This document shows positions 11,393 through 40,806 of a stretch of DNA of 46,033 bases, piece by piece. How positions within the stretch are numbered: the stretch's first letter is position 1; the number at the start of each line of letters is the position of its first letter. The notes below the pieces were generated by a model. It was not told where the DNA came from. It was given only the letters and a program-made list of their open reading frames with translations, and did no database searches. The position numbers and the translations under genes were made by a program. Source of the stretch: Pseudomonadota bacterium (GTDB lineage Bacteria; Desulfobacterota; Syntrophorhabdia; Syntrophorhabdales; Syntrophorhabdaceae); NCBI GenBank assembly GCA_026388315.1, contig JAPLKA010000082.1, positions 1 to 46,033 of the forward strand, read 5' to 3'.

Positions 11393-11408
11393 TGGCATCC
11401 TTATTGCT
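11393..11408 (+). promoter_or_regulatory. Sigma-54 (RpoN) promoter of the redox operon
   Basis: TGGCATCCTTATTGCT matches the -24/-12 consensus with invariant GG (11394-11395), ten bases, then GC (11406-11407). It is 51 bp before the ATG at 11459 with a good AAAGGAG ribosome site between. A GAFTGA-bearing activator gene lies at the end of the same cluster. Confidence 0.75.
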
Positions 11409-11458: not shown

Positions 11459-12481
11459 ATGTATGCAAGAGCAACGGAAAAGAAAGTGTTACTCATTGAC
11501 GATGAGCCATCTTTGAGAAGAAGTGTTTCGATGGGTCTCATGCAGCAGGGTTATCAGACAGAACCTTGCGAGAACGGCATGAAGGCACTCCAGGCCCTGG
11601 AAATGTTCAAGAGAAAGAAAATCCCTCTGGACTATGCAATTGTGGACATAAAACTGCCCGATATCGACGGCTTGAAGCTCCTGAAGGTGATCAAATTCAA
11701 TTATCCGAATCTCCCGGTTATTGTGATTACCGGGTACGGCAGTGAAGCAACCCGTGAGGAAGCCACGACCCAGCATGCAGATGCCTACCTGGAGAAGCCG
11801 TTCAGCATGGATGACCTCGCCGGGGTCCTCTCCGGGATCAACATGGCGGGCGAGGAAAGCGCCGCCCCTGAGAGTACACCAACCGAATCCACCGCACTGG
11901 CCCAGTCTGTGAGCGCCTACGCCCTTCTGTCCCTCGACAGTTCCGCCAACCTGCTCAAGGTGTACAGGAAACTTTATTTTCAGGAAAATGTTCTGTACTG
12001 TGATGCCATCAGGGGTGACTTTGACATCGTCCTGCTCCTCCAGGCCCCCACGTTTGATAAGATCCAGGATGTACTGGAAAAAGAAGTAAAGAATATTGAA
12101 GGCGTGGCGGATGTGACGCTTCTCAATGTGGACTCACCGCTGTTTGGAGAAAACGTGGTAAACATTATGAGTTCTGTGGACAAAGCCCTTGGCAGGGACA
12201 AAGAGGAAGGCGAAGTCTATACGAGTCAGCCCGTGAGAATCAGGGCATCTTCCTACGTGATGCTTGAGATTGAGAAGGAAAAACTTGAAGCCATCTATCC
12301 GGTCCTCTACTTCAATGACCAGGTTGTATATTGTGACTACGTGAGAGGCAAATATGACATTGTCCTCCTCATGAAAGGCACAAGCTTCAGCGAAATCGAC
12401 AACACCATAAAGAATAAATTCAAGCCCCTCGACGGCGTCCTGAGAATCAAGGAATGGCCGATCATCACCATGTTTGAGTAA
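11459..12481 (+). CDS. Response regulator with two Lrp/AsnC-effector-like domains, no DNA-binding domain
   Basis: This 340-residue protein begins with a receiver domain (about 8-130) that keeps the acidic pair Asp14/Asp15, phospho-acceptor Asp63 in AIVDIKLPD, a Thr in VITGYG and the Lys of LEKPFS. An Ala/Ser/Pro/Thr linker follows, then two repeats of about 85 residues (about 155-240 and 258-340). Each has the pattern of the Lrp/AsnC ligand-binding alpha-beta barrel: SAYALLSLD...VLYCDAIRGDFDIVLLL and SSYVMLEIE...VVYCDYVRGKYDIVLLM. No helix-turn-helix or output enzyme is visible. It is the first gene after the sigma-54 promoter and 52 bp upstream of the NuoE-like gene, so it may sense or tune the redox complex by binding protein or ligand. 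That role is inference. Confidence 0.75.
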   Translation: MYARATEKKVLLIDDEPSLRRSVSMGLMQQGYQTEPCENGMKALQALEMFKRKKIPLDYAIVDIKLPDIDGLKLLKVIKFNYPNLPVIVITGYGSEATREEATTQHADAYLEKPFSMDDLAGVLSGINMAGEESAAPESTPTESTALAQSVSAYALLSLDSSANLLKVYRKLYFQENVLYCDAIRGDFDIVLLLQAPTFDKIQDVLEKEVKNIEGVADVTLLNVDSPLFGENVVNIMSSVDKALGRDKEEGEVYTSQPVRIRASSYVMLEIEKEKLEAIYPVLYFNDQVVYCDYVRGKYDIVLLMKGTSFSEIDNTIKNKFKPLDGVLRIKEWPIITMFE

Positions 12482-12533: not shown

Positions 12534-13040
12534 ATGCTACAGAAGGAAGAGATTAGAAAAGAAAATACGGGCAGCCAGTTTTACGACTTCAAGATGGAGT
12601 TGTGGAAGTACCAGGGCGAAAAGGGAGCGCTTATACCGCTCCTTCAGTCCGCCCAGGAGGCGTACGGTTATATACCGGAGTCGGCCATTGACCATATCAG
12701 CGAGGTGGTGGAGATTCCGGGGGCCGAGATCTATGGGGTTATCACCTTTTACTCCCAGTTCCGCCTGAAACCTATGGGTAAGAACATCATCAAGATGTGT
12801 GACGGGACTGCCTGTCACGTGAACGCCTCTAACGGCATCTTGAGGGCCCTGGAAGATGAGCTTCAGATCGGAAATGATGAGACCACTGAGGATGGTCTCT
12901 TCACCCTGCAGAAGGTTGCCTGTCTCGGGTGCTGTTCCCTTTCCCCGGTTATTATGATAAACGACGATACCTTTGGACGGCTTACGCCCAAGAAGGTTAA
13001 GGAACTGCTCAAGGAGTTCAGAGCGAACGGAAATGCGTAG
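12534..13040 (+). CDS. NuoE-like NADH dehydrogenase 24-kDa [2Fe-2S] subunit
   Basis: This 168-residue thioredoxin-like ferredoxin subunit is of the type found in complex I, [FeFe]-hydrogenases and NAD-linked formate dehydrogenases. It has ALIPLLQSAQEAYGYIPESAI, IYGVITFYSQFRLKPMGK, and the cluster ligands CDGTACHV (C-x4-C) and CLGCCSLSPV (C-x3-C). The length is close to the family norm. It passes electrons between the NuoF flavin site and other centres in a soluble complex. It lies in the operon driven from the sigma-54 promoter and is followed 62 bp later by the NuoF-like gene. The rest of complex I is absent here, so this is a stand-alone diaphorase module. Confidence 0.93.
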   Translation: MLQKEEIRKENTGSQFYDFKMELWKYQGEKGALIPLLQSAQEAYGYIPESAIDHISEVVEIPGAEIYGVITFYSQFRLKPMGKNIIKMCDGTACHVNASNGILRALEDELQIGNDETTEDGLFTLQKVACLGCCSLSPVIMINDDTFGRLTPKKVKELLKEFRANGNA

Positions 13041-13102
13041 TCACCGTGGTTTTGTGTCAGGGAGATGTTTGGGACCTTCGAAAAAAGATGAGGAGAATGA
13101 GG

Positions 13103-14869
13103 ATGAAAACAATTAAAGTCGGGCTTGGTACCTGCGGGGTATCCGCCGGCGGCGAAAAGACCTACGAAGCCATAAAGCATGAGATTGAGAAAGAGAATAT
13201 CCAGGTGGTGTTGAAGGAAACCGGATGCAACGGCATGTGCTACCGTGAACCCTTGGTGGAAGTGATTGATGAGGAGAACCATTCGTTCCTGTACGGAGAT
13301 GTTACCCCTGAAAAGGCAACGAGGATCATGACCGACCATGTACTCAAGAACATGCCTGTGAAGGAATGGATTGTTCAAAACTCCGGTCCCTCTCAGGACG
13401 ATGCCTTTTTTCAGAAACAGCGGCGCATCGTATTGAGAAACTGTGGCATTATTGACCCGAATTCAATTGACGAATATATTGCTGCCGGAGGTTATAAGGC
13501 CATCCGAACAGTGATAAAAAAATATACGCCTGAGCAGGTCATTGATATCATGACCAGATCAGGCCTGAGAGGTCGGGGCGGTGGAGGATTTCTTACGGGT
13601 GTGAAGTGGAAATTCTGCCGCCAGGCGGAAGGGACATTGAAATACATTATCTGCAATGCTGACGAGGGAGACCCGGGTGCTTTCATGGACCGGTCCACCC
13701 TGGAGAGCGATCCCCACGCTGTGCTTGAGGGCATGATGGTCGGCGCCTATGCCATCGGCGCCGAGGAAGGATACATTTATGTGCGCGCAGAATATCCAAA
13801 GGCGGTTGCCCGGTTGAAACACTCGATCAGGGAGGCGCTGGCACGAGGGTTCCTCGGCAAGAACATCTTTGGCTCTTCTGTTAATTTTTCCATAAAGATC
13901 AAGGAAGGCGCCGGGGCCTTTGTGTGCGGAGAGGAAACGGCCCTTATTGCGTCCATCGAAGGCAAACGGGGTATGCCCCGGTTTAGACCTCCTTTCCCTG
14001 CCAACAAGGGATTATGGGATAGGCCTACCAATATTAACAACGTGGAAACCTTCGCCAATATTCCCTGGATCATCATGAACGGGGCTGAGGCCTTCGCTTC
14101 CATGGGCACGGAAAACAGCAAAGGCACCAAGGTATTTGCCCTGGCGGGAAAGATTAAGCGGGGCGGACTCGCAGAAGTACCCATGGGCATTACCATAAAT
14201 GAGATTGTGTACGACATAGGGGGCGGCATCAAGGGAGGAAAGAAGTTTAAGGCTGTACAGATGGGCGGACCATCGGGCGGATGTATCCCTGCCTCCATGG
14301 GTGACCTCCAGATCGACTACCAGCAGATCAACAAGACGGGCGCCATCATGGGCTCCGGCGGTCTTGTGGTTTTGGATGAGACCACCTGCATGGTGGAAAT
14401 GGCCAAGTTCTTCCTTTCCTTTACCCAGGAAGAATCATGCGGTAAATGCACCTTCTGCAGAATAGGCACCAAGCGGATGCTCGAGATCCTCGAGAGGATC
14501 ACCGATGGAAACGGCCGCGAAGGCGACGTGGAACTCCTCCAGCATCTCGCGTATCAGATACGGAATAATACTATTTGCGGGCTTGGGCAGACAGCTCCCA
14601 ACCCTGTGCTCACTACGCTCAAGTACTTCCCTGAGGAGTATGAGGCCCATATCCGGGATAAGAAATGTCCTGCCCATAGTTGTGCGCCTCTGCTTACCTA
14701 TTCCATACAGGCCGATGCGTGCAAGGGGTGTACCCTTTGTGCCAAGGCGTGTCCGGTGGAAGCAATAAGCGGCGAGAAGAAAAAGGTTCATGAGATTAAT
14801 GTGGCGATCTGCATAAAGTGCGGCAAGTGCTTCGAGACCTGCAAGTTCAGCGCAGTGCTAAAAAACTAA
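13103..14869 (+). CDS. NuoF-like NAD(H)-binding FMN/iron-sulfur subunit with C-terminal ferredoxin domain
   Basis: The protein is 588 residues from the preferred ATG 13103, which has GAGGAG seven bases upstream (ATG 13088 and GTG 13046 are alternatives). It starts with a thioredoxin-like domain (GLGTCGVSAGG, TGCNGMC). The diaphorase core has GLRGRGGGGFLTG for NADH binding, ICNADEGDPGAFMDR for FMN, an SLBB-type stretch and the [4Fe-4S] motif ESCGKCTFC. The C-terminus adds two [4Fe-4S] motifs (CKGCTLCAKACP, CIKCGKCFETC). This is the HydB/HoxF-like architecture of bifurcating hydrogenases and soluble formate dehydrogenases, longer than complex I NuoF. The expected role is NAD(H) oxidoreduction with split to iron-sulfur carriers. 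The partner is the fusion gene 14 bp downstream. Confidence 0.93.
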   Translation: MKTIKVGLGTCGVSAGGEKTYEAIKHEIEKENIQVVLKETGCNGMCYREPLVEVIDEENHSFLYGDVTPEKATRIMTDHVLKNMPVKEWIVQNSGPSQDDAFFQKQRRIVLRNCGIIDPNSIDEYIAAGGYKAIRTVIKKYTPEQVIDIMTRSGLRGRGGGGFLTGVKWKFCRQAEGTLKYIICNADEGDPGAFMDRSTLESDPHAVLEGMMVGAYAIGAEEGYIYVRAEYPKAVARLKHSIREALARGFLGKNIFGSSVNFSIKIKEGAGAFVCGEETALIASIEGKRGMPRFRPPFPANKGLWDRPTNINNVETFANIPWIIMNGAEAFASMGTENSKGTKVFALAGKIKRGGLAEVPMGITINEIVYDIGGGIKGGKKFKAVQMGGPSGGCIPASMGDLQIDYQQINKTGAIMGSGGLVVLDETTCMVEMAKFFLSFTQEESCGKCTFCRIGTKRMLEILERITDGNGREGDVELLQHLAYQIRNNTICGLGQTAPNPVLTTLKYFPEEYEAHIRDKKCPAHSCAPLLTYSIQADACKGCTLCAKACPVEAISGEKKKVHEINVAICIKCGKCFETCKFSAVLKN

Positions 14870-14883
14870 ATGGAGAATCAAGT

Positions 14884-17800
14884 ATGGCGGATACAGTGAA
14901 ACTTACAATAAATGGAAAAGCATATACGGCGAGTCCAGGACAGATGATTCTTGAAGTGGTCCGGGCCAACAATATTGACGATATTCCGACCCTTTGCTAT
15001 GACCCCCGTCTCCCGCCTTATGGCTCGTGCTATCTGTGCGTGGTTGAACAGGAAGGGCTCGAGAAGCTGATTCCATCCTGTTCGAGCCCTGTGGCCGACG
15101 GGATGGTGATCCATACAAACAATGACAGGATCAGGGAATCGCGCAAGACGGCTCTCGAGCTCCTCCTTTCAAACCATTACGCCGACTGTCTTGGGCCTTG
15201 CACCCAGACATGCCCGGCCGGGGTTGACGTACAGGGCTACATCGCCCTTGTGGCCATGGGAAGGAACAGAGAGGCAGTGAAGCTGATAAAAGAGAAGAAC
15301 CCGTTGCCCCTGGTCTGCGGCAGAGTCTGTGTGAGGGAGTGCGAAACCGCGTGTCGGAGAAATTCCGTCGATGACCGGGTGGGCATCGATTATCTGAAGC
15401 GGTATGCCACTGATATCGACATCGACGATCCCTGGATGCCCGAGGTTGCCCCATGGAACGGAAAGAAGGCGGCAGTGGTGGGCGGTGGTCCCGCCGGTCT
15501 TACCTGTGCCTATTATCTTGCGGTCAAGGGTTATAAGGTCATCATTTTTGAGAAATCACCCCATCTGGGCGGCATGCTTCGTTACGGCATACCGGAATAC
15601 CGCCTGCCCAAGGCGCTGCTCGACCGGGAGATCCAGTGCATACTCGACCTCGGTGTTGAGGCAAAGAGGAATACGGTGTTGGGAGAGGATTTCACCATAA
15701 AGTCCCTCAAGGATGAGGGGTTTGATGCGATATTCCTTTCCATCGGAGCCCAGAAGGCCAAGACTATGGGACTTGCGGGCGAAGAAGCGACGCCGGGCGT
15801 CATCGGTGGTGCCGACTATCTCCGGGCCATGCAGGATGAGAGTCCTCCCAAGGTATACGGGAGAGTAGTTGTGGTTGGCGGTGGCAATACTGCCATCGAT
15901 GCGGCGAGGACAGCCCTGAGGACCGGTGCGGATAAAGTGACGCTTCTCTATCGGCGGACCAAGAAAGAGATGCCTGCTCACGAGATGGAGATAGATGCTG
16001 CCCTTGAAGAGGGAGCGGAACTCGTATCCCTGTCTGCTCCCGAAGGAATCGTGACAAAGGGCGGCCGGCTCAGCGCTCTCACCTGTATCCGCATGGAGCT
16101 TGGCGAACCGGACGCAAGCGGCCGGAGAAGTCCTGTGCCCGTAAAGGGCTCTGAATACGAGCTCACATGTGACTTCGCGATTTCCGCTATCGGTCAGAAT
16201 ATCGATCTTGGGCAGATTAATGCGGACGGACAGCTCAAGACAACACGTTGGGATGGTACGGTGGTGAAAGAGGGTACCTTTGAAACCTCCATACCGGGTG
16301 TTTTTGCAGGCGGTGACGGCATGACAGGCCCGGCAGTGGCCATCGATGCCATCGCTCACGGACGGTTCGCTGCCCTGTGTATGGATCAGTACATGCAGAC
16401 CGGGAAGATGATCCCTGTGGCCAGGGGTTTTGTGAGCAGGAAGGATAGCTTCGGCAGTATTCCCGAGATTGAGTTCGCCCAGTACAAAAAACTGGAAAAA
16501 GAGAAGATGGACGAACTGCCGGTGCTCCAGAGAATCAAGAACCAGGACGAGGTGGAAACCGGGTTTACTCGGCTCCAGGCCGAAAACGAGGCAGCACGCT
16601 GTCTTGAATGTGGCTGCTCGGACTATTTCGATTGTGACCTGAGGAAGCATGCGTCGGATTTTGGTGTTGAACTGAGCCACTTCCTGGGTGATGTAAGACG
16701 GTTTAAGGTAGATGCGGCACATCCCTTTATAAACCTTGATCCGAACAAATGTATCTCCTGCGGCCGGTGTGTGCGCACCTGTTCCGAGATCCTCAAGATT
16801 TCGGCCCTGGGCTTTGTGAACAGGGGCTTTAAGTCAGTGGTAAAACCTTCCATGGAAAAGAAGCTGCTCCAGACCAACTGCATTTCCTGCGGGAACTGTA
16901 TTGCCGCCTGTCCGACCGGTGCCATCACTGAGAAACTGTCCTTCCGTAAACCCGGTCCATGGGATTCGGAGAAGGTTCCTTCGGTTTGTTCCTTCTGCTC
17001 CGTAGGATGCAACCTGAGCTACAGGGTTTTTCACGACCACTGCTTCACCGTGGAGAATGTAAACGGAAATTCCCACAACAAAGGGTTCCTCTGTGCAAAG
17101 GGGCGGTTCGGCTACCGGTATATGCTTGAGAAAGACCGGCTTATGAAGCCCATGATTAAGAAGAGGGGCAGACACTATGATGCGTCATGGGAAGAAGCCT
17201 TTGATTACGCCTCAGAGAGACTGAGCAATATCGTGAAGACCCACGGTCCCGACTCGGTGGCTGTGTTCGGGTCACCCCGGATGACGAATGAGGAGCTTTA
17301 CCTGCTCCAGAAGTTTGCGAGAACGGGACTCAAAACCAATAACATTGGAAGTTTCAGTAATCTCATCAACGGGGCGGAGCAGGACTGTCTTGACGACATG
17401 TTCGGTATTACCACATCCACGGCGACCATGGATGATCTCGCTGCCGCCGACGTGATCCTGATCATTAATGCAGACCTTTCTGAAGACAACCTTATTGCGG
17501 AACTGAAGATAAAGGCCGCACAGAAGAACGGTGCCCGCCTCATCACCGTACACTCTGCCGAGATGGAGCTTAACAAATTTGCAGATTTGTGGATAGATTC
17601 GAAGCGCGGCACGAACACGGGACTCATCAATTTCCTTTCCAAGGCAGTCCTGGATCGGGGGCTATCAGACAAGGGCTTTATTGATAAGAGGACGGAAGGG
17701 TATGAAGAGTTCAAGGCCTCGATCTCGGGTTTCAACATGAATGCCATCTCGGAAGTCACCGGGGTGAATAATAGCAAACTCCAACAGTTTTGTGATCTCA

Positions 17801-18645
17801 TTGCAAGGCCGAAACTGAACCTCGTGGTAGTCTACAGCATCGATTCTCTGTGGGAAAAGTCGAAGGATGACCTGAAGGCCATAGGAAACCTGATGATGTT
17901 GACGGGTCGGATTGGAAAAACGGGGAATGGTATCGTAGTGCTCAGGGATTTCGCGAACTCTCAAGGTCTCCTCGACATGGGTGTGGACCCTGGTTATCTT
18001 CCGGGGTACGTGAGCCACCGTGACAAAGAACAGATTGCCGCCCTCGGCAAGAAGTGGGGTACGGACCTGGCAGCCATTTTCAAACCCGTGGATCTCAAGG
18101 AAGCCATGGAGAAGGAGAAGATCAAGGCAGCCATCGTTTTCGGCGAGGACCCTTTTTACGTCACATCGAACTTCAAGCTAACAGGAGGGATTGAGTTTCT
18201 CCTTGTTATTGACTCTTTAATGACGACCACAGCTATGGAGGCGGATGTGGTTCTTCCGGCCTCTGTACCGGTTGAAACAGAGGGCTCTTACACTGCCTGT
18301 GACCGGAGAGTTCAGAGGATGGCCAGGGTTTTTGAGCCCCTGACAGGCATGGAGAACTGGCAGATAATCAAGAAGCTTGCCGAAAAACTGGGTACCAAAA
18401 TGAGTTTCGCTGCGGTGAGCGGCATCGCCAAAGAGATTGAGAAGGTAGTCCCTTTCTACAAGGGCGTAGCCCCCGGTTCTTTCTGGGGCAAGGGATTTCT
18501 CGGGAAGGCTTTCATGACCCCAGGCGGAAAAGGGCGATTCAGCACGGTCTCCATGGATGCGTCACCTTGTAACATGGAGAAGAAACCATTTCTGTCCAGT
18601 GAAAACTATTTCAACGTAAAGATCAGAGCAAAGCTGACTAAATAG
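14884..18645 (+). CDS. [2Fe-2S] / NfnB-GltD flavoprotein / [4Fe-4S] / degenerate molybdopterin-oxidoreductase fusion
   Basis: This 1253-residue multidomain subunit starts at ATG 14884 (MADTVKLTING). Domains in order: NuoG/HydA-type [2Fe-2S] with Cys38, 49, 52 and 66; a GltD/NfnB-type module with N-terminal cluster cysteines 102-110 and 145-157, an FAD loop VGGGPAGLTC near 200, a second nucleotide loop VVGGGNTAIDAA and the FAGGDGMTGP motif; two [4Fe-4S] motifs from Cys623 and Cys666; then an FdhF-like region with CSFCSVGC from Cys702. In that last region the MTNEELYLLQKFAR block is clear, but the position of catalytic Sec/Cys in formate dehydrogenase is Ile828 (SNLINGAEQ), the following His is Asn, and the C-terminal cofactor-binding domain is missing. 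Formate oxidation is therefore unlikely. NAD(P)H-linked electron confurcation is a reasonable inference. Confidence 0.9.
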   Translation: MADTVKLTINGKAYTASPGQMILEVVRANNIDDIPTLCYDPRLPPYGSCYLCVVEQEGLEKLIPSCSSPVADGMVIHTNNDRIRESRKTALELLLSNHYADCLGPCTQTCPAGVDVQGYIALVAMGRNREAVKLIKEKNPLPLVCGRVCVRECETACRRNSVDDRVGIDYLKRYATDIDIDDPWMPEVAPWNGKKAAVVGGGPAGLTCAYYLAVKGYKVIIFEKSPHLGGMLRYGIPEYRLPKALLDREIQCILDLGVEAKRNTVLGEDFTIKSLKDEGFDAIFLSIGAQKAKTMGLAGEEATPGVIGGADYLRAMQDESPPKVYGRVVVVGGGNTAIDAARTALRTGADKVTLLYRRTKKEMPAHEMEIDAALEEGAELVSLSAPEGIVTKGGRLSALTCIRMELGEPDASGRRSPVPVKGSEYELTCDFAISAIGQNIDLGQINADGQLKTTRWDGTVVKEGTFETSIPGVFAGGDGMTGPAVAIDAIAHGRFAALCMDQYMQTGKMIPVARGFVSRKDSFGSIPEIEFAQYKKLEKEKMDELPVLQRIKNQDEVETGFTRLQAENEAARCLECGCSDYFDCDLRKHASDFGVELSHFLGDVRRFKVDAAHPFINLDPNKCISCGRCVRTCSEILKISALGFVNRGFKSVVKPSMEKKLLQTNCISCGNCIAACPTGAITEKLSFRKPGPWDSEKVPSVCSFCSVGCNLSYRVFHDHCFTVENVNGNSHNKGFLCAKGRFGYRYMLEKDRLMKPMIKKRGRHYDASWEEAFDYASERLSNIVKTHGPDSVAVFGSPRMTNEELYLLQKFARTGLKTNNIGSFSNLINGAEQDCLDDMFGITTSTATMDDLAAADVILIINADLSEDNLIAELKIKAAQKNGARLITVHSAEMELNKFADLWIDSKRGTNTGLINFLSKAVLDRGLSDKGFIDKRTEGYEEFKASISGFNMNAISEVTGVNNSKLQQFCDLIARPKLNLVVVYSIDSLWEKSKDDLKAIGNLMMLTGRIGKTGNGIVVLRDFANSQGLLDMGVDPGYLPGYVSHRDKEQIAALGKKWGTDLAAIFKPVDLKEAMEKEKIKAAIVFGEDPFYVTSNFKLTGGIEFLLVIDSLMTTTAMEADVVLPASVPVETEGSYTACDRRVQRMARVFEPLTGMENWQIIKKLAEKLGTKMSFAAVSGIAKEIEKVVPFYKGVAPGSFWGKGFLGKAFMTPGGKGRFSTVSMDASPCNMEKKPFLSSENYFNVKIRAKLTK

Positions 18646-18660: not shown

Positions 18661-18712
18661 AGAGAAGGACAGGCGATCTTCCCATGAGTCCGCCTGTCCT
18701 TCTCTTTATTTA
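18661..18712 (+). terminator. Rho-independent terminator of the redox operon
   Basis: AGAGAAGGACAGGCG (18661-18675) and CGCCTGTCCTTCTCT (18691-18705) are perfect 15-bp inverted arms with a 15-base loop, followed by a T-rich run. It lies 15 bp after the stop of the fusion gene and isolates the operon from the kinase gene. Confidence 0.9.
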
Positions 18713-18775: not shown

Positions 18776-20821
18776 ATGGGGCAGATCCGGGATGAACGGA
18801 GCATTGAAAAGGACTTGAAGAAACGGCTTCAGGAACTGGATTGTCTCTATAAAACAGGATTTGAGATAGAGTCGGATAATGATCTTGTGGAAATTTTGAG
18901 GAACATCACCACACATCTGGTTGCAGGCCTCAAGGTTCCGGAAAGCGCAGCATCGTCCATATGGTTTGACGGGGTTGAGCATTCCTCCAGGCCGCCAAAT
19001 CGTGCACATATTGTGGAGTCCTTCAGCTCGGACATTGTGGTAGAAGGTCGAAAGCGTGGTGCTGTTGAGGTGTATTACAATAAGAAAGAACAGTTTCTTG
19101 AAGAAGAAAAAACACTGATAACCGAGATTGGGCGCAGACTGTCAAAGGCCATAGAGAGACGGGAACTCCATTCAAAGGTTCATTATAGCCTTCGTCACCT
19201 CGAGGAATTTATGGATGAGAAGACCGGGGAACTCGAAAAGTCCAAGAACCGTTACAAGAACTTCTTCACGGATGCGCCTATGCCCATGCTCATCTCCCGT
19301 CCTAACGGGGATATAACCAAAGCAAATCGAGCATTCTACAGGCTTTTCGACTATCCCGAGGACGGTTCCGTGCATCTCAGCTTTGTGCGGGACAAGCTCT
19401 ACGAAAAGCCTGAGGTTCGCTCGGTGATCTTCGATACTCTGCACAAGGAGGGAAAGCTTGAAGATTTCGAAGTGACCCTTCTGGACAGGAACGGCAACCC
19501 GATTCCTGTCATTGCATCGTATATCTGGATTGATGTTGATGGAGAGTTGTGCGTCGAATCTGTGTATAAGGATTTGCGCATAAGGAAACAGCTTGAAAAG
19601 AAGCTCATAGAACAGAACGAAAACCTGGAAAGAAACGTCCGGGAGCGGACATTGGACCTGGAAAAACAGAAGGATCTCCTTATTAAAAAGAACCAGGAAC
19701 TGATGACCCTGACAGAGAAGCTGCGGGAGAGCAAAACCAGGCTCCAGGTCCTTTTTAAGACTATCACCGACACTGTAACGGTAATCGACGGGGACTTTAA
19801 CATCCTTATGTCCAACCAAAAGGCCATCGGAAACAGGGGGAAATGCTATAAAAAGGTCTTCGGCCAGGAGCACTCCTGCGAAGACTGCCTGGTCAGGCGA
19901 GTGCTTGAAGAGAAAACCTCCGTCACTTTTGAGAAGGTAATCGGTGGTGAATACTATCTTCTTCAGGCCTATCCCATCTTTAATTCCAGTGGCGAGGTGA
20001 CGGGAGCCCTCGAGATTTCGCGGATCATCACAAAAGAGAAAAACATGGAGAGGCAACTCCTTCAGGCAGATAAGCTTGCTTCCCTGGGGCAACTTGTATC
20101 GGGTATAGCCCACGAGATTAATAACCCCAATACCTTCATCCGGGGAAACCTGCATATCATCCAGGAAGCCATGAATGATATCTTCCCTTTCCTTGACCAG
20201 GCCTATAAATCCAATCCTGATCTGAAGATCGCCCGTCTCAACTATGATATCTTCAGGCAGAATGTCCCGATCCTCATTGATGATATGGCTCAGGGGGCAA
20301 ACCGTATCAAAGGCATCGTGGATGGGTTACGAAAATTTGCGAAGCGTGATGAGGGACTCCTCAATGAGAATGTAGAGCTCAATGCTATTACTGAAAGCTG
20401 CCTGCGCCTGGTAGACAACCAGATACGGAGAACCGCGGACGTGAAAGTAGAACTCGAGCCGAACGTTCCAACCATAACAGGGAACACTCAGAAGCTGCAG
20501 CAGGTGATTGTGAACATTCTGATCAATGCCTCTCAGGCCATCGAGAAATCAAAAGGAACAATCATCGTTACCTCGGAGTTTAATGATGGGGAGGTTGTTC
20601 TTCGGGTGCGAGACGACGGCAAAGGCATGGACGAGAAGACATTGAAACAGATGTTTGATCCTTTCTTTACCACCAAGAGACACCAGGGCGGAACGGGCCT
20701 CGGCCTTTCCATCGCTTACGGCATCATCAAAGAGCATAAGGGGAGAATAGATGTGGAGAGCAAGGTTGGGGTGGGGACTTCCTTCTGCATCTGCCTTCCC
20801 AGAAGCCCGGCGGAGGCTTGA
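18776..20821 (+). CDS. Soluble multi-PAS sensor histidine kinase
   Basis: This 681-residue kinase has no membrane segments, so it senses a cytoplasmic signal. It has a GAF-like N-terminal region (about 15-120), PAS (about 165-270, NFFTDAPMPMLISRPNGDI), a coiled coil (about 270-325, rich in Glu/Lys/Leu) and a second PAS (about 325-425). The second PAS has a cysteine set (KCYKKVFGQEHSCEDC), which could bind metal or act as a redox switch. Then come HisKA with His446 in SGIAHEINNP and HATPase_c with N-box NILINASQAI, G1 DDGKGMDE, F-box DPFFTTK and G2 GGTGLGLSIAYGI. Its stop overlaps the ATG of the NtrC-type regulator (TGATG), so they form a two-component pair. The signal is probably redox or metabolic, judged only from the neighbouring operon. 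Confidence 0.92.
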   Translation: MGQIRDERSIEKDLKKRLQELDCLYKTGFEIESDNDLVEILRNITTHLVAGLKVPESAASSIWFDGVEHSSRPPNRAHIVESFSSDIVVEGRKRGAVEVYYNKKEQFLEEEKTLITEIGRRLSKAIERRELHSKVHYSLRHLEEFMDEKTGELEKSKNRYKNFFTDAPMPMLISRPNGDITKANRAFYRLFDYPEDGSVHLSFVRDKLYEKPEVRSVIFDTLHKEGKLEDFEVTLLDRNGNPIPVIASYIWIDVDGELCVESVYKDLRIRKQLEKKLIEQNENLERNVRERTLDLEKQKDLLIKKNQELMTLTEKLRESKTRLQVLFKTITDTVTVIDGDFNILMSNQKAIGNRGKCYKKVFGQEHSCEDCLVRRVLEEKTSVTFEKVIGGEYYLLQAYPIFNSSGEVTGALEISRIITKEKNMERQLLQADKLASLGQLVSGIAHEINNPNTFIRGNLHIIQEAMNDIFPFLDQAYKSNPDLKIARLNYDIFRQNVPILIDDMAQGANRIKGIVDGLRKFAKRDEGLLNENVELNAITESCLRLVDNQIRRTADVKVELEPNVPTITGNTQKLQQVIVNILINASQAIEKSKGTIIVTSEFNDGEVVLRVRDDGKGMDEKTLKQMFDPFFTTKRHQGGTGLGLSIAYGIIKEHKGRIDVESKVGVGTSFCICLPRSPAEA

Positions 20822-22182
20822 TGAACAGAATTTTGGTTATCGACGACGATCAGGCGGTGCTCAATTACTTGAATATCTTCCTGCTTCAGGCCGGGACCTT
20901 CGACGTGACAACCCTGAGCAATAGCACCAAGGCCTTCGATGTACTAAAGAGTAACCGCTACGATCTCCTCCTTCTCGATATGGATATGCCCGAGGTAACG
21001 GGTCTCGACATCCTCAAGAAGATTCAGGAGAACAGTATAGACGTGAAGACAGTGGTCCTGACGGGCATCGAGGACATTGAGCTCGCCGTGTCTGCTATGA
21101 AATTCGGTGCCATTGAGTACCTCATTAAACCCGTTGACAATGAGCGTCTCCTGGACCTTATCAATACAACACTGGAGAATCGGAATAACCAGAAAATGAT
21201 CGACCGGGAAATCCCTATCTCGCCGGGTCTGAAATTCGGGGATGCCTTTAAAAATATTGTCACCCAGCATGATAAGATGAATACCATCTTCTCATCTGTT
21301 GAAAAGATGGCCCAGACGGACAGTAGTATCCTTATCTGGGGCGAGAGTGGCACGGGCAAGGAATTGATCGCCAGAGCCATCCACAAGATCAGTAAACGCC
21401 ATATGGAAAGCTTCGTGGCCGTAAACGCGGGTGCCTTTGCCAACGAACTCTTCTCCTCTGAGTTCTTCGGCCATAACCAGGGCGCTTTTACGGGCGCTAC
21501 GACCCTCAAACGGGGGTTGATCGAAGAGGCTGACAAAGGAACTCTCTTCCTGGACGAGATCGGTGAACTTGCCCTCCCGATCCAGGTCAAGCTTCTCAGG
21601 GTGTTACAGGAAGGAGAGTTCTTCCGCTTGGGTTCTACCAAGCACCAGAAGGTTGACGCGAGAATACTTGCTGCCACCAACAAGAATCTCCATGAGGAGA
21701 TCAAGAAAGGAAACTTCAGGAAAGACCTTTTCTACCGTCTGAACATGAACTCCGTCTACCTGCCACCCTTGCGGGAGAGGAAAGGAGACATCCCTCTTCT
21801 CGCTTACCATTTTCTGAAGCGATTCTGCGTGGTCAATGAGAAAAAAATAGACAAGATATCGGATGCTGCGATGAAGCCCCTGACGCATCACGATTATCCC
21901 GGTAACGTCCGGGAACTCATGAATGTTATAAACAGCGCTGTGATTATCGAGTCTACAAATGAGATCAGAAAGAAGTCTCTCCCCAACTATTTTTTGGAAA
22001 GTGCTACGAACCTCGATGAAGGTTTTACCAATTTAACACTCAAATCCATGGCCGATGTAGAGAAGGATCACATCAGAAAAATACTTGGCTATACCGATGG
22101 AAACAAGAGCAAGGCCGCCCAAGTCCTTGGTATCTCAAGGATAACCCTCCTGTCGAAAGTGAAGAAATACAAGCTGGAATAA
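20821..22182 (+). CDS. NtrC-family sigma-54-dependent response regulator
   Basis: This 453-residue regulator has a receiver domain with Asp8-Asp10 and phospho-acceptor Asp53 (LLLLDMDMPE) and a Lys in LIKPVDNERL. The AAA+ domain has Walker A GESGTGKE, the sigma-54 contact loop GAFTGA, Walker B GTLFLDEIGEL, RVLQEGEFFRLG and the YPGNVRELMN box. The C-terminus is a Fis-type helix-turn-helix (GNKSKAAQVLGISRITLLSKVKKY). It opens sigma-54 promoters when phosphorylated. ATG 20821 overlaps the kinase stop. TTG 20818 would add one residue. The only sigma-54 promoter I see in the window is upstream of the response regulator and NuoEF operon, making that operon its likely target. Confidence 0.95.
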   Translation: MNRILVIDDDQAVLNYLNIFLLQAGTFDVTTLSNSTKAFDVLKSNRYDLLLLDMDMPEVTGLDILKKIQENSIDVKTVVLTGIEDIELAVSAMKFGAIEYLIKPVDNERLLDLINTTLENRNNQKMIDREIPISPGLKFGDAFKNIVTQHDKMNTIFSSVEKMAQTDSSILIWGESGTGKELIARAIHKISKRHMESFVAVNAGAFANELFSSEFFGHNQGAFTGATTLKRGLIEEADKGTLFLDEIGELALPIQVKLLRVLQEGEFFRLGSTKHQKVDARILAATNKNLHEEIKKGNFRKDLFYRLNMNSVYLPPLRERKGDIPLLAYHFLKRFCVVNEKKIDKISDAAMKPLTHHDYPGNVRELMNVINSAVIIESTNEIRKKSLPNYFLESATNLDEGFTNLTLKSMADVEKDHIRKILGYTDGNKSKAAQVLGISRITLLSKVKKYKLE

Positions 22183-22590: not shown

Positions 22591-25386
22591 TTAAATGTGG
22601 CAGATACTGTTAAACGAGCATGCAGCGCATGCCTCATCATCGAAAGGCTTAAAGGGCTTCGATATGTCCATCATATCCCTTAAGACTGTTTTAAAGCCTT
22701 CCATATATTGTTCAATTACAGTTGCTCTGTTAGCGTCCCAGCTGCCCTTGAAAAGCATTTCTTCTTCGTTTGTCTTGAGCAAAATCAATATTGCTTTGAT
22801 GCTGTTTAATGGAACTGAAAACGCTTTATGGAACAGATACACATATATCGGCAATTGGAGAGAGTTTACCTTTTTATGAATGTCATCAATTGACGTAAAA
22901 TCGGTCTTTTCAATGATGTTCCGCGGGTATTGCTTTGAGCCTCCTGTCTTATAGTCTATGATTGTATATTCGCCATTGTCAGGATAAAAATCAATCCTGT
23001 CTATCCTTCCCCTGAAACTGACCGGAGTGCCGTCAGCGTCAATGACATTATTAATTGGCGCTTCGAGATGCTGGATTATAAATGGTCTTCCGGCATCCCT
23101 GATATTTTTTCGCAGAAAGGATTCCAGTTTATAGGCAGTAAGCCTTTTAAAAAGATAATAATCGCCGGTGACCACTTTATCCTTAAAGCGTTCTTCTATT
23201 ACGGTGTACATTTTGTCCAGGATATCCTTAAATGCTATGCCGGTCATATCTCTATTTTTAAACATCTCAAATGTATCGTGGAGGATGCGATGTATAATAG
23301 TGCCCCTGTCTAATGCATCAATGTCGTCGGATATCCCCTTTTTTTGTTCAAAATTGAGAATGTGCTTGTAATAGAATAGCACCGGGCAGAGGATAAAGTC
23401 GTCAACAGACGAAGGAGAGTATGTTTTGTTTTTAAGTCGCCCGATGATGCTGCCCGTCTTTTTAAACTCAGGCAGGATCTCTCTGGATTTCAGGTTGATT
23501 TTACATTGTGATCGCTCAACAGGTATTGCATTGAGGGTTTTTGTACGCTTTTCTTCTTCCCAGAGGATTTGTTCGATATACCTGCTTCTCTGTTTGTTTT
23601 CTGAGTCTATGTATAACAAATGAATGTCTTTCGCTGAGTTTATTAAACGATAAAAGTGGTATCTGTATATTTCTTCGTTATATTCAGGAGTAGGTATACC
23701 GAGTATTTCATAGACGCCGAGCGGTACAAGGGGGTCGATCCTTTTTGGCTGAGGCATGACCCCTTCATTGACATCGGGCATAATCACCGTATCAAAGAAT
23801 AGGTTTCTCGTTTCAAGCATCCCGATAATTTCGAGTTCTTCTATGGGTCGTGTATCAAACGGCAGGTCGATTGTTTTGAGCCAATTGATGGTAAAATCAT
23901 ACAATGCCTTTTTGTTCTCTTTGGTGTCAAAAGAAAATATCTCCCTGCAAAACCTTGCCTGTTTCAGGTTCTCCAGGAACTTGAATGCTGTTTTAAATAT
24001 TTCCCCGGATAGAATGTAAGAACGTATGGGCGTGCGGTTGAGGATATACTCAAGCACTTCTTCAACCCTTTCAACGATTTCGTATAAATTCTTGACATCC
24101 TCAAGGTTTCTGAAAAAAATCCTGTGGATTTCGTTGAGGGATTTATTAGTTGCGAGTTCACACTCTGTCTCGATTTCTTCCAGTGTTGCAAAAGGTTTTC
24201 CAGATACGCCTGTTTCAAAGGTTTCGCCTTTCAGGGATTTTTCTATATGTAAAAAAATCCCCCTTATATCAGCATCCAGATTGAGGTTTTTTACAAAGGG
24301 GTTGAGAATGACATGGAGATAATCTTTTGTAGAATAGAATGTCTCTTTTCGTCTCGTCATCTGTGCATTGATTATGTTTTCAATCAAATCAAAGACAGAT
24401 GTTCTCGCAAAGGGGTATCCCAGGGAGATATTGTATTTTTTGTCCGACCGGTCAACGGCGAAAGTCAATAATGGAAAAAGTGACTCTGACAGAGGAAGTA
24501 CAACAGCAACCTTTTTCGATGTTACATCATGCAATATGTTGTGTATTTTCAATACTTCAGAATGGGTATCGAAGGCCGAATAGATTTTTACATGTTCCGG
24601 CTTTGAAACGGCACAGTCGATATTTTCGATTTCAGCACTAAAATGGGGAATCAATTTTTTCAGGATTTGCCACTCGTCGATATTGCCTTCAAAGATAATC
24701 TCCCCCTTGTCTTTCAACCAGACATTCCTGACAATCTCCCTTTCTGTGCCTGATAATGCAAACAAACCGGCAAAATATATCACCTCAAATTCATCAAGAG
24801 GCGCCTCACTGATTGCTTCAAGGGCGCTGAGATGTTTGTATCCATGTGTAAAACAGAAGTTTTTCCTTAATGCCTCATGGAATCTGTTTCTTATAATGCC
24901 AATGTTCATGAGGAGTTCGTTAACACTCTCCGGTACGTCATACCCTATTTTTGCATTGCCTTCCAAGGCATGTAACCTGCTGTTGGAGACGTTTTCAATG
25001 TCAAGCTGGTTGATAAAATCAAGGATATGCCTGCCCCAGTAGAAAAATTCACCGAAGCCTTTCTGTGCAAAGGAATGCTCATGAAAAATCTTCAACGATT
25101 GGACAACCTGATACAGTAGCCATACGGCATCGGCATATTCCATGTCAGTAAAATCGTAAAATTTCTTTCGTGTGATATAGTCGATGAATTCAGCAACAGA
25201 ATAACAGCGTGGAGGGTAAAAAGGCTGAGTCTGACCTTCGGCAAAGGCTTTTTTAAGATAAAGGGAGGGTCTTTTTCCAGAAAAGACTATTGCTGTTTTT
25301 GACAGGGGCTTCCCGTTGCGGATAATAAATTTTTTTAGTTCCCCGATAAAATCAGCGCCAAATGGTATTGAATATATCTTTCTCAT
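22591..25386 (-). CDS. AddB-like ATP-dependent nuclease subunit (PD-(D/E)XK family)
   Basis: This 931-residue partner of the AddA-like helicase-nuclease has an N-terminal region resembling an inactivated helicase fold (IVFSGKRPSLYL). The C-terminal RecB-type nuclease domain has GTIIHRILHD, a DRIDFY segment and IIDYKTGG carrying the Asp and Lys of the active site. Cysteines FILCPVLFYYKH and the terminal CAACSFNSIC are spaced like the [4Fe-4S] staple of AddB. It overlaps addA by 4 bp (ATGA), so the two are coupled and should form one heterodimer that resects DNA ends for RecA. It is shorter than Bacillus AddB (about 1160 residues), as many proteobacterial versions are. Sequence conservation is low outside the motifs. 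Confidence 0.85.
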   Translation of the reverse strand: MRKIYSIPFGADFIGELKKFIIRNGKPLSKTAIVFSGKRPSLYLKKAFAEGQTQPFYPPRCYSVAEFIDYITRKKFYDFTDMEYADAVWLLYQVVQSLKIFHEHSFAQKGFGEFFYWGRHILDFINQLDIENVSNSRLHALEGNAKIGYDVPESVNELLMNIGIIRNRFHEALRKNFCFTHGYKHLSALEAISEAPLDEFEVIYFAGLFALSGTEREIVRNVWLKDKGEIIFEGNIDEWQILKKLIPHFSAEIENIDCAVSKPEHVKIYSAFDTHSEVLKIHNILHDVTSKKVAVVLPLSESLFPLLTFAVDRSDKKYNISLGYPFARTSVFDLIENIINAQMTRRKETFYSTKDYLHVILNPFVKNLNLDADIRGIFLHIEKSLKGETFETGVSGKPFATLEEIETECELATNKSLNEIHRIFFRNLEDVKNLYEIVERVEEVLEYILNRTPIRSYILSGEIFKTAFKFLENLKQARFCREIFSFDTKENKKALYDFTINWLKTIDLPFDTRPIEELEIIGMLETRNLFFDTVIMPDVNEGVMPQPKRIDPLVPLGVYEILGIPTPEYNEEIYRYHFYRLINSAKDIHLLYIDSENKQRSRYIEQILWEEEKRTKTLNAIPVERSQCKINLKSREILPEFKKTGSIIGRLKNKTYSPSSVDDFILCPVLFYYKHILNFEQKKGISDDIDALDRGTIIHRILHDTFEMFKNRDMTGIAFKDILDKMYTVIEERFKDKVVTGDYYLFKRLTAYKLESFLRKNIRDAGRPFIIQHLEAPINNVIDADGTPVSFRGRIDRIDFYPDNGEYTIIDYKTGGSKQYPRNIIEKTDFTSIDDIHKKVNSLQLPIYVYLFHKAFSVPLNSIKAILILLKTNEEEMLFKGSWDANRATVIEQYMEGFKTVLRDMMDISKPFKPFDDEACAACSFNSICHI

Positions 25387-28300
25387 ACGACCTTCACTTC
25401 ACCGGTGTCTAAATACAGTACATATCTGTTTACAGTTTTATCGGGATACATTTTTTGCATAAGATCCCCATAGTGCATTATCTGCTCAATATGTTCCTGT
25501 AAATGTGTCTCGCCTGTCTTAAAGTCGATCACATCAATATGGTCATCCGCCATAAGGATTCTGTCAACCTTATAGGTATCGCCACGTGGATCAATTATTT
25601 CCTGCTCTGAATAAATAACACTGTTTTCTTCGGGCTGAAAGAATCGCTTAAATTGCGGGGTTGTGAAGATCCGGTAGATCATGTCTGTAACCATAGATTT
25701 GTGGCTATGAAAACCATATCGTGCAATTCCTGTAACGATGCACCTGTTGAGAAAGATGTCATAATCTTCTGGTAATTTTGATATGAGAGACAGGATGTAA
25801 TGAATCACATCACCCTTTTTCTTTGCAAACAGGTTTTCAGGTGAAATCCCTCCGGGTTCTTCAACCTTTGCTTTGATATATCCCATCCATCCAATATCCT
25901 CACCCAGACCTTCAAAAAGCTGTCCCTTGTCCCTTGTCCCTTGTCCCTCGTCTCCTTTTCTTTCTGCTCTCCGTTCTCTGTCTTCTGCTGTTTTTCGCCC
26001 TATCTCCACCACGTTCCCATGAATATATCCTCTCAGCCCATCCAGACCAAAAAAATAGTCAATCAGATGGTTTTTCTGTCGGTTCGAATCGGTCAAGAAG
26101 ACATAAAGTTCTTGTTCTGCACGTGTGCAGGCAACATATATGTTATTAAGTTCGTCAAGGATGTACTCTGCCCCCCTTTCATTATAAATTTCCTTCAGTT
26201 TCCGGGAATACTCAGTAAAATCTTTCTTGATGTACAAGAGTTTCATCTCATTATCTTTTTTTACAAAATACCTTGTTTTATCTCTGCTGTCTGAGGAGCC
26301 GTATGTGTTTAATTTCAAGAAAGGCAGGATTACAACAGGGAACTGAAGCCCTTTTGCCTTATGAATCGTCATTACCTTGACTGCGTTGTTTCCATCATTT
26401 GTTTTTAATGAGAAAGATTCTTCACTTTCCGAGTCATTCTTCCAGAATTCTAAAAAGCACGTAAGGTTGTTCTGCTGCAAACCTTCCTGTTCTTTTATTA
26501 ATTCGCAGACATGGAGAAAATAAGCGTTGTCCTCGGGAAAATTGTTCAAAATTCCCCATTTTTTTAAAAAGAGCACGACAAAATCATAAAGTGGCAGGTA
26601 GCCGGAATTCCTGAAAAAATAGTCGAAATAATCATTCCAGATCCGGGGAAAATCTCTTTGAAACGCAAGGTAAAGGTGTTCAGACGGTTTGTTTATGCGC
26701 CCATGCGTAATAAGGCTTATGAGTTCATCTTTATGTAAACCTGTCTTTTTCTGAAAAATGTTTCCCAATAAAAAGCCCGTAATTGAGAGGTCATCATCGG
26801 GTGAATTGATGAACGTTAAAAAGTTTATCATCTCCTGTATAAGTGGATTATTCTTAACATTCACCGTGAGGTCGGATTCAACACTGATGTCCATTTCAAG
26901 AAGTGTCTTAACGATGAATCGTGCCTCCTCCTTTCTCCTCACAAGTATGGCAATCTCCGTATATTCAAAGGTGTTCCTCTCTCTCAGTTCCTCGATTAGT
27001 GCTTTAAATCTGGCCTTGATCAGTTCGTTTTTTTCATCTTTCAAAAACGTTTCTTTTGCATCACCGTTCATGTCTTCCTGAATGATCCTTTCCACGCGAA
27101 CGTAACCTTTGCGGGCATGGCTGTCTATGAATTTTTGTGCCGATTCCATATAGGTTGAAGTAACCCTGTATGTTATATCTCCGGGGTTGTTTTCTTTGAG
27201 GTATTTGATGACAGCCCCTAAGTTATCAGGATCAAAAATAGTATTATTAAAAGATACAACATATTCCCCGCTTCTGTAGTTCCTGTCGAGCTTCAATTCA
27301 TAAACAGGATAGGACTGGTATTGGGATGAGATTTCATCGACAAGCTCAGCTTTTCCGCCACGCCACCGGTAGATTGCCTGCTTTTTATCGCCAACGAGAA
27401 AGAGCGTACCGCCCTTGCTTAACGCCTCTTCTGCCAGTATCTCAATATTATTCCATTGCAGATGGTTCGTATCCTGAAATTCATCAATAAGAAAATGTGA
27501 ATACCGCTCAGCAAGGGCATAGTAAATTTCAGGTATGAAATGTTCATCTTTGATGATTTTCTGCAATAAGGTATTCAATTGTTCGATGAGAATGAGTCGT
27601 TTGTGGTAGGTAATCTCTATCTGGAGCATTTGCTTGAAGAGTTCATAAATTTCTATATATGAGGCATATCTGGATTCTGAAAGGATCTCTATAAAGGATG
27701 AAAGTCCATTTTTTATGTCTCTCCATAATTTTTCACATTCCTCGGGGGCAGAGGCACTTTTTTTATTCAGAGATTCCTGGACAGTATCTCTTTTAAAATA
27801 GGCACTGATTTTAGACACATATTTATTAGAAACGGAAAATTGCTCGAGGGCCTTTAAAAAACCTGCGTTAGGTTTCATTTCAGACGTTGTGGAGAGGTAT
27901 GCCTTTAATTTTGAAATATCCTTTTCTATCCCTGCTTGTATATCCTCCAGTGAAGCAGTATTCGTTGCGTATGCAAAACCGATATTTTCCTTTGTTTCTT
28001 CATTCCAGAGGCTCGAGATGGTCTCGCGTAGAAAATTCTTCGGGATCCAGTTGACGTTTTCCCCTTCCAGTTCAATGTAATTTTTGAGGAACCTGTCGAA
28101 TTTTCCCCTTATGCTGTCATTCTCGAGGATTTTTTGAAGGCATTCCTGAAGTACGAAGTCTGTATAAGTCCCGGACTCGGTGGAGATATCAAAATCCGGC
28201 GACAGGTTTAATTTAAAGGCAGAGGCCTTCAGGGTAAGATTTACAAAGCTATCGATGGTACTGACATTAAAGTCATAGTAATTTTCAAGTAAATCCTCGA

Positions 28301-28625: not shown

Positions 28626-28750
28626 CCAATCGTTTTTAATCACTTAAGTATATTTCTTTATTAAAGTAAACTATAGTTTCATAAATAACGAATATTTTTA
28701 CAAGTAATATTTATAGATTACCCGGTATTTGTGATTTTGTATTACCAAAC

Positions 28751-38919: not shown

Positions 38920-39003
38920 TTATGAATTTCGGATTATACATTGCGGAATTAAACCCAGAAATATGAAATTAAAAATTGAAATTGATAACAGGAGGCTGGT
39001 TAA

Positions 39004-39798
39004 GTGAACATTTTGGTTTGTATTAAACAGGTTGCTGATACTGAGGCACGAATATTACTTAAAAGTGACAAAAAATCCTTAGAGATTGAAAACAAGTATA
39101 ACATGAATTTTTTTGACGAATTTGCTGTTGAGGAAGCAATACGGATCAAAAGCAAAATCAAAGACAGCCAGATCACAGTATGTACATATGGTACAAAAAA
39201 AGCTGTTGAGGCGTTGCGTACAGCAATAGCAATGGGGGCAGACAGAGCTTTCTTGTTGGATAACACAGGTTTGGACAGTGACGACCCGCTAATAATATCA
39301 AAAATACTTGCAAATTTTGCAAAGCAGGAAGGATTCGATTTGATATTCTGTGGCAGGCAGGCAATCGACGATGAAAACGCAAATATCGGTGCCATGATAG
39401 CTGAATTGTTAGGCATACCTCACGTGAGTGCTATCTTGAAATTTGATATCATTGATGAGAAAAAGGTGAGAGTCGAAAGTGAAATAGAAGGTGGCAAAGA
39501 AACATTAGAAGTTCAGTTGCCGGCTCTATTCACCACTCAAAAGGGAATTAATGAGCCAAGGGTGCCGTTAATTACAGGCGTTATGAAGGCCATGAAGGCC
39601 AGCATAACTGTTGTAGATCCAAGCACTTTTGAGGGATTATCCAAAGAGTTGATAGACATGACTGCTTCAAAAATATCGGTATTAACATACGAGACACCTA
39701 AGGGAAGACCTGCAGTCAAAATTGTTGATGGTGAGACCCCTGGAGAGAAAGTAAAATCTCTTATAAAGATTTTAAAAGAAGAAGCAAAAGCATTATAG
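39004..39798 (+). CDS. etfB: Electron transfer flavoprotein beta subunit (FixA/EtfB)
   Basis: This 264-residue ETF beta subunit starts at GTG 39004 behind AACAGGAGG. Family motifs are NILVCIKQVADTEARI, NFFDEFAVEEAIRIK, AIAMGADRAFLLD, LIFCGRQAIDDENANIGAMIAELLGIPHV and VQLPALFTTQKGINEPRVP. It binds the alpha subunit and, in the bifurcating FixAB type, a second FAD near the NADH site. The fixC and fixX genes downstream favour the FixAB class over simple housekeeping ETF. The gap to etfA is 15 bp. Confidence 0.94.
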   Translation: MNILVCIKQVADTEARILLKSDKKSLEIENKYNMNFFDEFAVEEAIRIKSKIKDSQITVCTYGTKKAVEALRTAIAMGADRAFLLDNTGLDSDDPLIISKILANFAKQEGFDLIFCGRQAIDDENANIGAMIAELLGIPHVSAILKFDIIDEKKVRVESEIEGGKETLEVQLPALFTTQKGINEPRVPLITGVMKAMKASITVVDPSTFEGLSKELIDMTASKISVLTYETPKGRPAVKIVDGETPGEKVKSLIKILKEEAKAL

Positions 39799-39813
39799 AG
39801 AGGAGACTAAAAC

Positions 39814-40794: not shown

Positions 40795-40806
40795 AAGAGG
40801 CTTGGC

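Follow-up and report, generated by a model that had tools for sequence, protein, structure and literature searches.

Stn-type transhydrogenases and a related locus in Syntrophorhabdales

The Stn enzyme of Sporomusa ovata couples NADPH, NAD+, and ferredoxin and is devoid of formate activity (Kremp 2020, PMC7483475). Electron bifurcation has been located at the flavin mononucleotide (FMN) of StnAB, and the FdhF domain of StnC has been called inactive (Kumar 2023, PMC10482914). Deletion of this domain or changes to its cluster cysteines abolish assembly, and the role of the two side-branch clusters was described as not understood (PMC10482914). NADPH:NAD+/ferredoxin bifurcation has also been measured for Nfn-Bfu of Thermococcus sibiricus (Schut 2022; structure 9n5u), and NfnABC of Caldicellulosiruptor saccharolyticus (9bov) likewise carries a formate dehydrogenase (FDH)-like C terminus without catalytic residues. 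NfnAB has an NfnB-like flavin adenine dinucleotide (FAD) module and the overall reaction in common with the Stn type, but it consists of two subunits, bifurcates at the NfnB FAD, and has no NuoE or NuoF. A dead molybdopterin fold is similarly retained as a scaffold by NuoG of complex I, which differs in lacking an NfnB module and in belonging to a membrane complex. Here we analyze a 46,033-nucleotide stretch (the window) from the draft genome, in 131 contigs, of a bacterium of the order Syntrophorhabdales (contig JAPLKA010000082.1 of assembly GCA_026388315.1). Its genes at 12534–18645 very probably encode an Stn-type (Nfn-Bfu, Type 1 Bfu) flavin-based electron-bifurcating transhydrogenase, an enzyme type that would balance NADH, NADPH, and ferredoxin.

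The three genes and the predicted parts of the large chain, a fusion protein, are as follows, with residues numbered from the Met codon at 14884.

12534..13040, forward strand: predicted StnA/BfuC, a NuoE-like thioredoxin-fold [2Fe-2S] subunit of 168 amino acids (PF01257, 2.5e-53; best PDB matches 9bov_C, 9n5u_C, and 8oh5_A)
13103..14869, forward strand: predicted StnB/BfuB, a NuoF-like FMN/NAD(H) subunit of 588 amino acids with N-terminal thioredoxin-like and C-terminal 2x[4Fe-4S] domains
14884..18645, forward strand: predicted StnC/BfuA, the fusion chain of 1253 amino acids, from the ATG at 14884 to the stop ending at 18645 (Pfam and PDB matches)
14890..15123, forward strand: N-terminal NuoG-type [2Fe-2S] domain, residues 3–80 (PF13510, Fer2_4; Cys38/49/52/66 align with StnC ligands)
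15193..16563, forward strand: NfnB/GltD-like module, residues 104–560, which holds the FAD and NADP(H) sites as well as two [4Fe-4S] clusters (PF14691, Fer4_20; PF07992, Pyr_redox_2)
16600..16953, forward strand: NuoG-type [4Fe-4S] region, residues 573–690 (PF22117, Nqo3-type ferredoxin; Cys573/576/578/584, 623/626/629/633, and 666/669/672/676 conserved)
16954..18642, forward strand: putatively dead FDH domain, residues 691–1253, corresponding to FdhF domains I–III, with domain IV missing (Pfam, AlphaFold2, Foldseek)
17365..17370, forward strand: Ile828-Asn829 at the Sec-His (metal ligand/catalytic) position, Sec being selenocysteine (alignments)

A GTG at 14818 provides an alternative start for the fusion chain. 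Translation of the NuoF-like subunit most likely begins at the ATG at 13103 rather than at the GTG at 13046 where the open reading frame opens, because a ribosome-binding site is present there and the resulting 588 amino acids match the length of the relatives.

A search across the phylum covered 250 genomes. Within the order of the window, 21 of 46 genomes gave a match at E 1e-150 or better, and chains of the window type were found in about a dozen genomes of the order at 65–93% identity. Close relatives include Syntrophorhabdus sp. PtaU1.Bin058, UBA2221, ADurb.Bin026, and a metagenome-assembled genome labeled Syntrophus sp. The gene order NuoE-NuoF-fusion chain is repeated in two relatives (L127 and L045), and wherever else a window-type relative was checked, NuoF adjoins the chain. 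A chance reading frame or frameshift artifact was ruled out, given that the frame is open in the dozen or so related genomes with a ratio of nonsynonymous to synonymous substitution rates (dN/dS) of about 0.1.

All three subunits match the Stn triad

The top PDB matches for all three subunits are the enzymes of S. ovata (8oh5), C. saccharolyticus (9bov), and T. sibiricus (9n5u). The fusion chain is best matched by 9bov_A (3e-266) and 8oh5_C (3e-233), and 9bov gives the best match for both the large and the small chain. The NuoF-like subunit scores 853–856 bits with 9n5u_B, 8oh5_B, and 9bov_B, compared with 746 bits for the next match, the NiFe-Bfu HydB; its T. sibiricus counterpart and that of the NuoE-like subunit, BfuB and BfuC, are as near to the window as those of the other two enzymes. 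Full-length alignment with 8oh5_B and 9n5u_B shows that this subunit possesses the B1–B4 ligands including the B2 His (EAHIRDKKC), the FMN site, the N-terminal thioredoxin-like domain, and the C-terminal ferredoxin domain. Of these, the B2 His/Cys ligands and the ferredoxin domain at the C terminus serve as marks of a BfuB protein (PMC9304861).

In the fusion chain, the cluster cysteines of StnC are conserved over the aligned stretch, which extends to residue 866. Lys172 corresponds to the unusual lysine ligand K170 of StnC, and Arg240 corresponds to R239. The sole candidate ligand that has changed is C114 of StnC, which is Val116 here and which has been described as variable (PMC10482914). 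The initial annotation of this DNA had described a chain joining a NuoG-type [2Fe-2S] domain, a GltD/NfnB-type FAD-NAD(P)H module, two [4Fe-4S] clusters, and an FdhF-like region, and Pfam bears out this order, placing Molybdop_Fe4S4 and Molybdopterin (E 4e-41) after Fer2_4, Fer4_20, Pyr_redox_2, and the Nqo3-type ferredoxin. Its count of two [4Fe-4S] clusters was too low, as we find ligands for six [4Fe-4S] clusters and one [2Fe-2S] cluster. It had also proposed a soluble, three-subunit bifurcating or confurcating transhydrogenase built on a dead molybdopterin scaffold, and this proposal gains support from the match of the subunits to the Stn triad and the conserved cofactor ligands (PMC7483475, PMC10482914). 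What it overlooked is that the enzyme type is already published, that FMN rather than the NfnB-like FAD is the site of bifurcation, and that the same fusion occurs in relatives with Sec intact.

Because all subunits match the triad best and the ligands and Bfu hallmarks are conserved, the cluster is assigned to the Stn/Nfn-Bfu family by every sequence criterion tested. An FDH would carry a Sec-His or Cys-His pair and a C-terminal Molydop_binding domain, and the chain has neither. It is also distinct from NfnAB in that its partners are NuoE and NuoF, not a DHODB-type NfnA. The architecture is thus not new, but the window enzyme departs from its described relatives in several respects. StnC has 1172 residues compared with 1253 here, and shares the inactive FdhF domain; however, more of the FDH sequence survives in the window domain, and the locus has sigma-54 and two-component surroundings. 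The loop around the former Sec position, for instance, is shortened in StnC and 9bov but kept in the window domain. In 9bov the FDH region is reduced in length, and the former Sec loop carries a deletion. The large chain of 9n5u is shorter, its FDH domain is partial, and one NuoG-type cluster has been lost.

The FDH domain has lost its catalytic residues and keeps a predicted FDH fold

Same-phylum genomes provide an informative comparison for the C-terminal domain. Seventeen relatives (L019–L025, L027, L029–L034, L036, L039, and L040) encode the same fusion with an in-frame TGA in the context (C/S/P)AR(L/V)UH, and one further relative (L028) has Cys-His at the catalytic pair. These Sec fusions share the N-terminal 690 residues and the domain order with the window chain and are 33–42% identical to it over about 1200 residues. 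They differ by their Sec-His pair (CARxUH) and, in the two tested, by a Molydop_binding domain.

Alignments with E. coli FdhF, the Sec relatives, and Rhodobacter FDH agree with the earlier assignment of Ile828 to the Sec/Cys position and of Asn829 to that of the adjacent His. The catalytic pair of E. coli FdhF is Sec140-His141. The window reads TNNIGSFSNLINGAEQ where the free Rhodobacter FDH, with its Cys-His, reads TNNTDTCARVCHSPT and where the Sec relatives have the motif TNN(I/V)DxCAR(L/V)UHxxT. By alignment, neither Sec nor Cys occupies the metal-ligand position in the window (Ile-Asn) or its clade ([ILM]-Asn). The absence of the C-terminal cofactor domain, which had likewise been noticed earlier, is confirmed: Pfam finds no Molydop_binding domain (PF01568) in the window chain and does find it in the two Sec relatives and the one Cys relative tested. 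The cofactor loop LRGQNN has changed to LRDFAN.

An AlphaFold2 model of residues 691–1253, the FDH domain alone, has a mean predicted local distance difference test (pLDDT) score of 90.2 and a predicted template-modeling (pTM) score of 0.92, and its Foldseek TM score against E. coli FDH-H is 0.88. The model superposes 553 residues at 2.6 Å on residues 1–604 of 715 in 1aa6, and since the overlap stops at residue 604, most of domain IV is not covered. Superposition on 9bov includes 494 residues at 2.3 Å, and on 8oh5 484 residues at 2.2 Å. Residues 691–1253 are thus predicted by the model to have the FDH fold.

The intact, FDH-like fold of domains I–III, together with the retained [4Fe-4S] ligands Cys702/705/709/737, Lys739, and Arg1021 (the arginine of the LRGQNN motif), could be taken to mean that the complex is still a formate dehydrogenase (Fdh-Bfu) in which Ile and Asn stand in for Sec and His or a ligand is supplied from elsewhere. 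We consider this hardly credible in view of the residues found at the ligand position in the window and throughout the clade, the missing Molydop_binding domain and altered cofactor loop, and the precedent of S. ovata StnC, a homolog that does not oxidize formate (PMC7483475). An active FDH using another ligand was accordingly rejected on the alignment, the missing domain IV, and the StnC precedent.

The dead domain is nonetheless under purifying selection. Between the window and its 93% identical relative L042, dN/dS is 0.125 for the FDH domain, 0.097 for the NfnB module, and 0.095 for the NuoG region. As a measure of decay we used 138 FDH-domain positions that are invariant among the Sec fusions. 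The share of these still present is 52% in the window clade, 40% in Firmicutes Stn, and 32% in 9bov (a lower bound, the printed 9bov sequence being partial). In the NfnB and NuoG regions the same groups retain 79–88% of Sec-invariant positions. By this comparison the pseudo-FDH of the window appears less decayed than the structurally known forms.

Such constraint might reflect a new role, with the bifurcating core working as proposed and the dead domain now binding a small molecule or docking a partner protein. Consistent with this idea, the clade conserves Ile/Leu/Met828 and Asn829, the domain is constrained and has decayed less than its Firmicutes Stn counterpart, and published work leaves the role of the two side-branch clusters unexplained. 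However, a tetramer scaffold would be constrained too, and the adjoining conserved genes are regulators only, with no other partner gene among them. We therefore regard a new role as unlikely, and favor the reading in which the dead FDH domain is probably kept as a structural scaffold.

Proposed reaction of the complex

We infer the reaction, its direction, and the scaffold role from characterized homologs. NADPH would reduce (or NADP+ would oxidize) the large chain's FAD, which sits in the NfnB-like module, and electrons would travel by way of the chain's Fe-S clusters and the NuoG-type region until they reach the FMN of the NuoF-like subunit. This flavin, acting with the B2 cluster of NuoF and the [2Fe-2S] cluster of NuoE, would split electrons between NAD+, at the FMN, and ferredoxin, by way of the two C-terminal [4Fe-4S] clusters; the reverse direction would merge them. 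The predicted reaction is 2 NADP+ + NADH + reduced ferredoxin <-> 2 NADPH + NAD+ + oxidized ferredoxin. With Sec/Cys replaced by Ile, the catalytic His by Asn, and the fourth cofactor domain gone, the FDH-like domain would have no working metal site and, by analogy with StnC, would serve as a structural and oligomerization scaffold carrying the side-branch [4Fe-4S] clusters.

The NfnB-like module might instead use another donor or acceptor, such as NADH or polysulfide, in which case the complex would not be a transhydrogenase. Use of polysulfide has been claimed for the related Nso of Thermococcus litoralis, which was described as a sulfur/oxygen oxidoreductase in work cited in PMC7483475. Given that the module is nearest to the NADP(H)-binding StnC and NfnB, and that Kremp et al. 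(PMC7483475) suggest that Nso itself may be an NADH-dependent ferredoxin:NADP+ oxidoreductase, we judge this very unlikely.

Two observations weigh against assignment of the cluster as an Stn-type transhydrogenase with a purely structural FDH domain. An NfnA/NfnB-like pair and a fused NfnAB are encoded elsewhere in the genome, whereas Stn and Nfn were almost mutually exclusive among the acetogens surveyed by Kremp et al. (PMC7483475). The lesser decay of the FDH domain relative to Firmicutes Stn leaves room for a ligand-binding role.

Other sets of related genes are present in the same genome. Contig 110 (L128:1721–8742) encodes a second Bfu-like set comprising NuoE, a NuoF of 626 amino acids, and a NuoG-like protein of 768 amino acids with an eroded molybdopterin domain. 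It is directly followed by the NfnA/NfnB-like pair, and the fused NfnAB (768 amino acids) lies at L128:13109–15415. At L128:9045–11174, an [FeFe]-hydrogenase-like domain is fused to a histidine kinase (HisKA, HATPase_c), making a putative redox or H2 sensor. Contig 95 (L130:2905–5964) carries a NuoF-NfnB fusion of about 1019 amino acids between NuoE-like and [FeFe]-hydrogenase HydA-like genes, adjoining a second NuoE-NuoF-HydA set. Matches of 1022–1027 amino acids to the NfnB region in other genomes of the phylum may represent the same NuoF-NfnB fusion.

Sec-containing fusions and a possible origin of the dead domain

The Sec fusions occur in a different gene context. The flanking stretches examined for Sec-fusion and Cys-fusion genes (L108–L121) contain no NuoF relative, and no NuoE relative was seen there either. 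At one locus (L118), Pfam identifies the neighbors as the acetyl-CoA synthase CdhC, CdhD, a pterin-binding protein, and an MTHFR-CdhD fusion, and several of the other loci match it in gene sizes and gene order, as judged by size only. The Sec fusions are presumably active NADP-linked formate dehydrogenases and may resemble the ancestor of Stn. HdrA-NfnB fusions (PMC9012536) and HdrL fusions (PMC2702500) are described in the literature searched; that literature yielded no description of a Sec-NfnB-FDH fusion, which is not proof of absence.

In several other genomes of the window's order and family, at L125:5275–8718 and in L101–L107, the same [2Fe-2S]-NfnB-NuoG half is joined to another C-terminal domain and has no NuoF nearby. 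In the one tested, the C terminus is an [FeFe]-hydrogenase H-cluster domain; the catalytic unit at the end of the chain has been exchanged as a module.

Trees from quick searches were built for the N-terminal 690 residues, the FDH domain, and NuoF, and the window clade groups with Firmicutes Stn in all three. In the tree of the N-terminal 690 residues the window clade lies with StnC and 9bov. Both this tree and that of the FDH domain separate the window clade and Stn from the Sec fusions, and the NuoF tree agrees with the fusion-chain tree. Tentatively, and with somewhat less than even confidence, we propose that Stn descends from a single-chain, NADP-linked Sec-formate dehydrogenase that lost Sec and the cofactor domain, recruited a NuoE/NuoF core, and was kept in its dead form as a scaffold. 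Relatives of that ancestor would persist in Wood-Ljungdahl loci of the same phylum, and the Syntrophorhabdales form would be a less decayed intermediate.

The FDH domain may instead have died independently here and in Firmicutes Stn, with the window chain arising from the Sec fusions of its own phylum, a history that is compatible with transhydrogenase function. An approximately unbiased (AU) test did not reject a clade of Sec fusions and window-type chains without Firmicutes (p 0.09), and three Sec-less chains (L026, L035, and L038) group with the Sec fusions, with no NuoF in the flanks examined. These three apparently represent a second, independent loss of the FDH active site, and because they fall on the Sec side, Sec was probably lost more than once. 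Independent death in the window lineage is nevertheless rather unlikely, as the unconstrained trees of the fusion chain, the dead domain, and NuoF all join the window type with Stn, and the NuoEF core is common to these two only.

Regulatory and flanking genes

The cluster is flanked by the following regulatory features.

11393..11408, forward strand: sigma-54-type -24/-12 site TGGCATCCTTATTGCT, a short distance upstream of the gene for the response regulator (11459)
11459..12481, forward strand: response regulator with an AsnC-type ligand-binding domain; the conserved cluster starts with this gene (Pfam Response_reg and AsnC_trans_reg)
18661..18705, forward strand: strong terminator-like hairpin followed by T-rich sequence, between the fusion gene and the kinase gene (-30.8 kcal/mol, z -4.6, 0/200 shuffles fold as well)
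18776..20821, forward strand: PAS-domain histidine kinase (Pfam HATPase_c and PAS; order kept in L126, L127, L042, and L045)
20818..22182, forward strand: NtrC-type response regulator with a sigma-54 activation domain (Pfam Sigma54_activat 2.3e-66, Response_reg, and HTH_8)

The TGGC-N7-TTGC site at 11393 is the only match on either strand of the window, with 0.35 expected by chance, and four relatives (L042, L127, L045, and L046) have comparable sites at the equivalent regulator gene or immediately before it. A response regulator of the AsnC type is likewise found upstream in L123, and a gene of the same size occupies the same place in L127, L045, and L046. Downstream, the succession of fusion gene, histidine kinase, and NtrC-type activator is likewise preserved in relatives. 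We infer that the operon is controlled by sigma-54 and that the site at 11393 is its promoter.

Elsewhere in the window, a PD-(D/E)XK nuclease beside a UvrD-type helicase (22591–28643, reverse strand) has the appearance of an AddAB-like recombination pair. Genes for an acyl-CoA dehydrogenase, two electron-transfer flavoprotein (ETF) subunits, and an FAD protein with an ETF-QO-like domain (37771–42096, forward strand) resemble a FixABCX/ETF electron-transfer cluster. At the contig end, two open reading frames with transposase pieces (DUF772, DDE; 121–1355, forward strand) probably represent a disrupted insertion element.

Implications

These findings would extend a recently described class of bifurcating transhydrogenases to the syntrophic order Syntrophorhabdales, where it appears to be under its own sigma-54-type regulation. 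New are the Syntrophorhabdales branch of Stn itself, spanning about a dozen genomes and bearing a less decayed pseudo-FDH, the conserved sigma-54-type site and two-component genes around an Stn-type cluster, and the occurrence of the same N-terminal half on intact selenocysteine formate dehydrogenases elsewhere in the phylum. The latter point to an uncharacterized fused, presumably NADP-linked, Sec-formate dehydrogenase in Wood-Ljungdahl loci, and as Sec-intact single-chain relatives they may offer a testable origin for the dead FDH domain of Stn and its two side-branch clusters.

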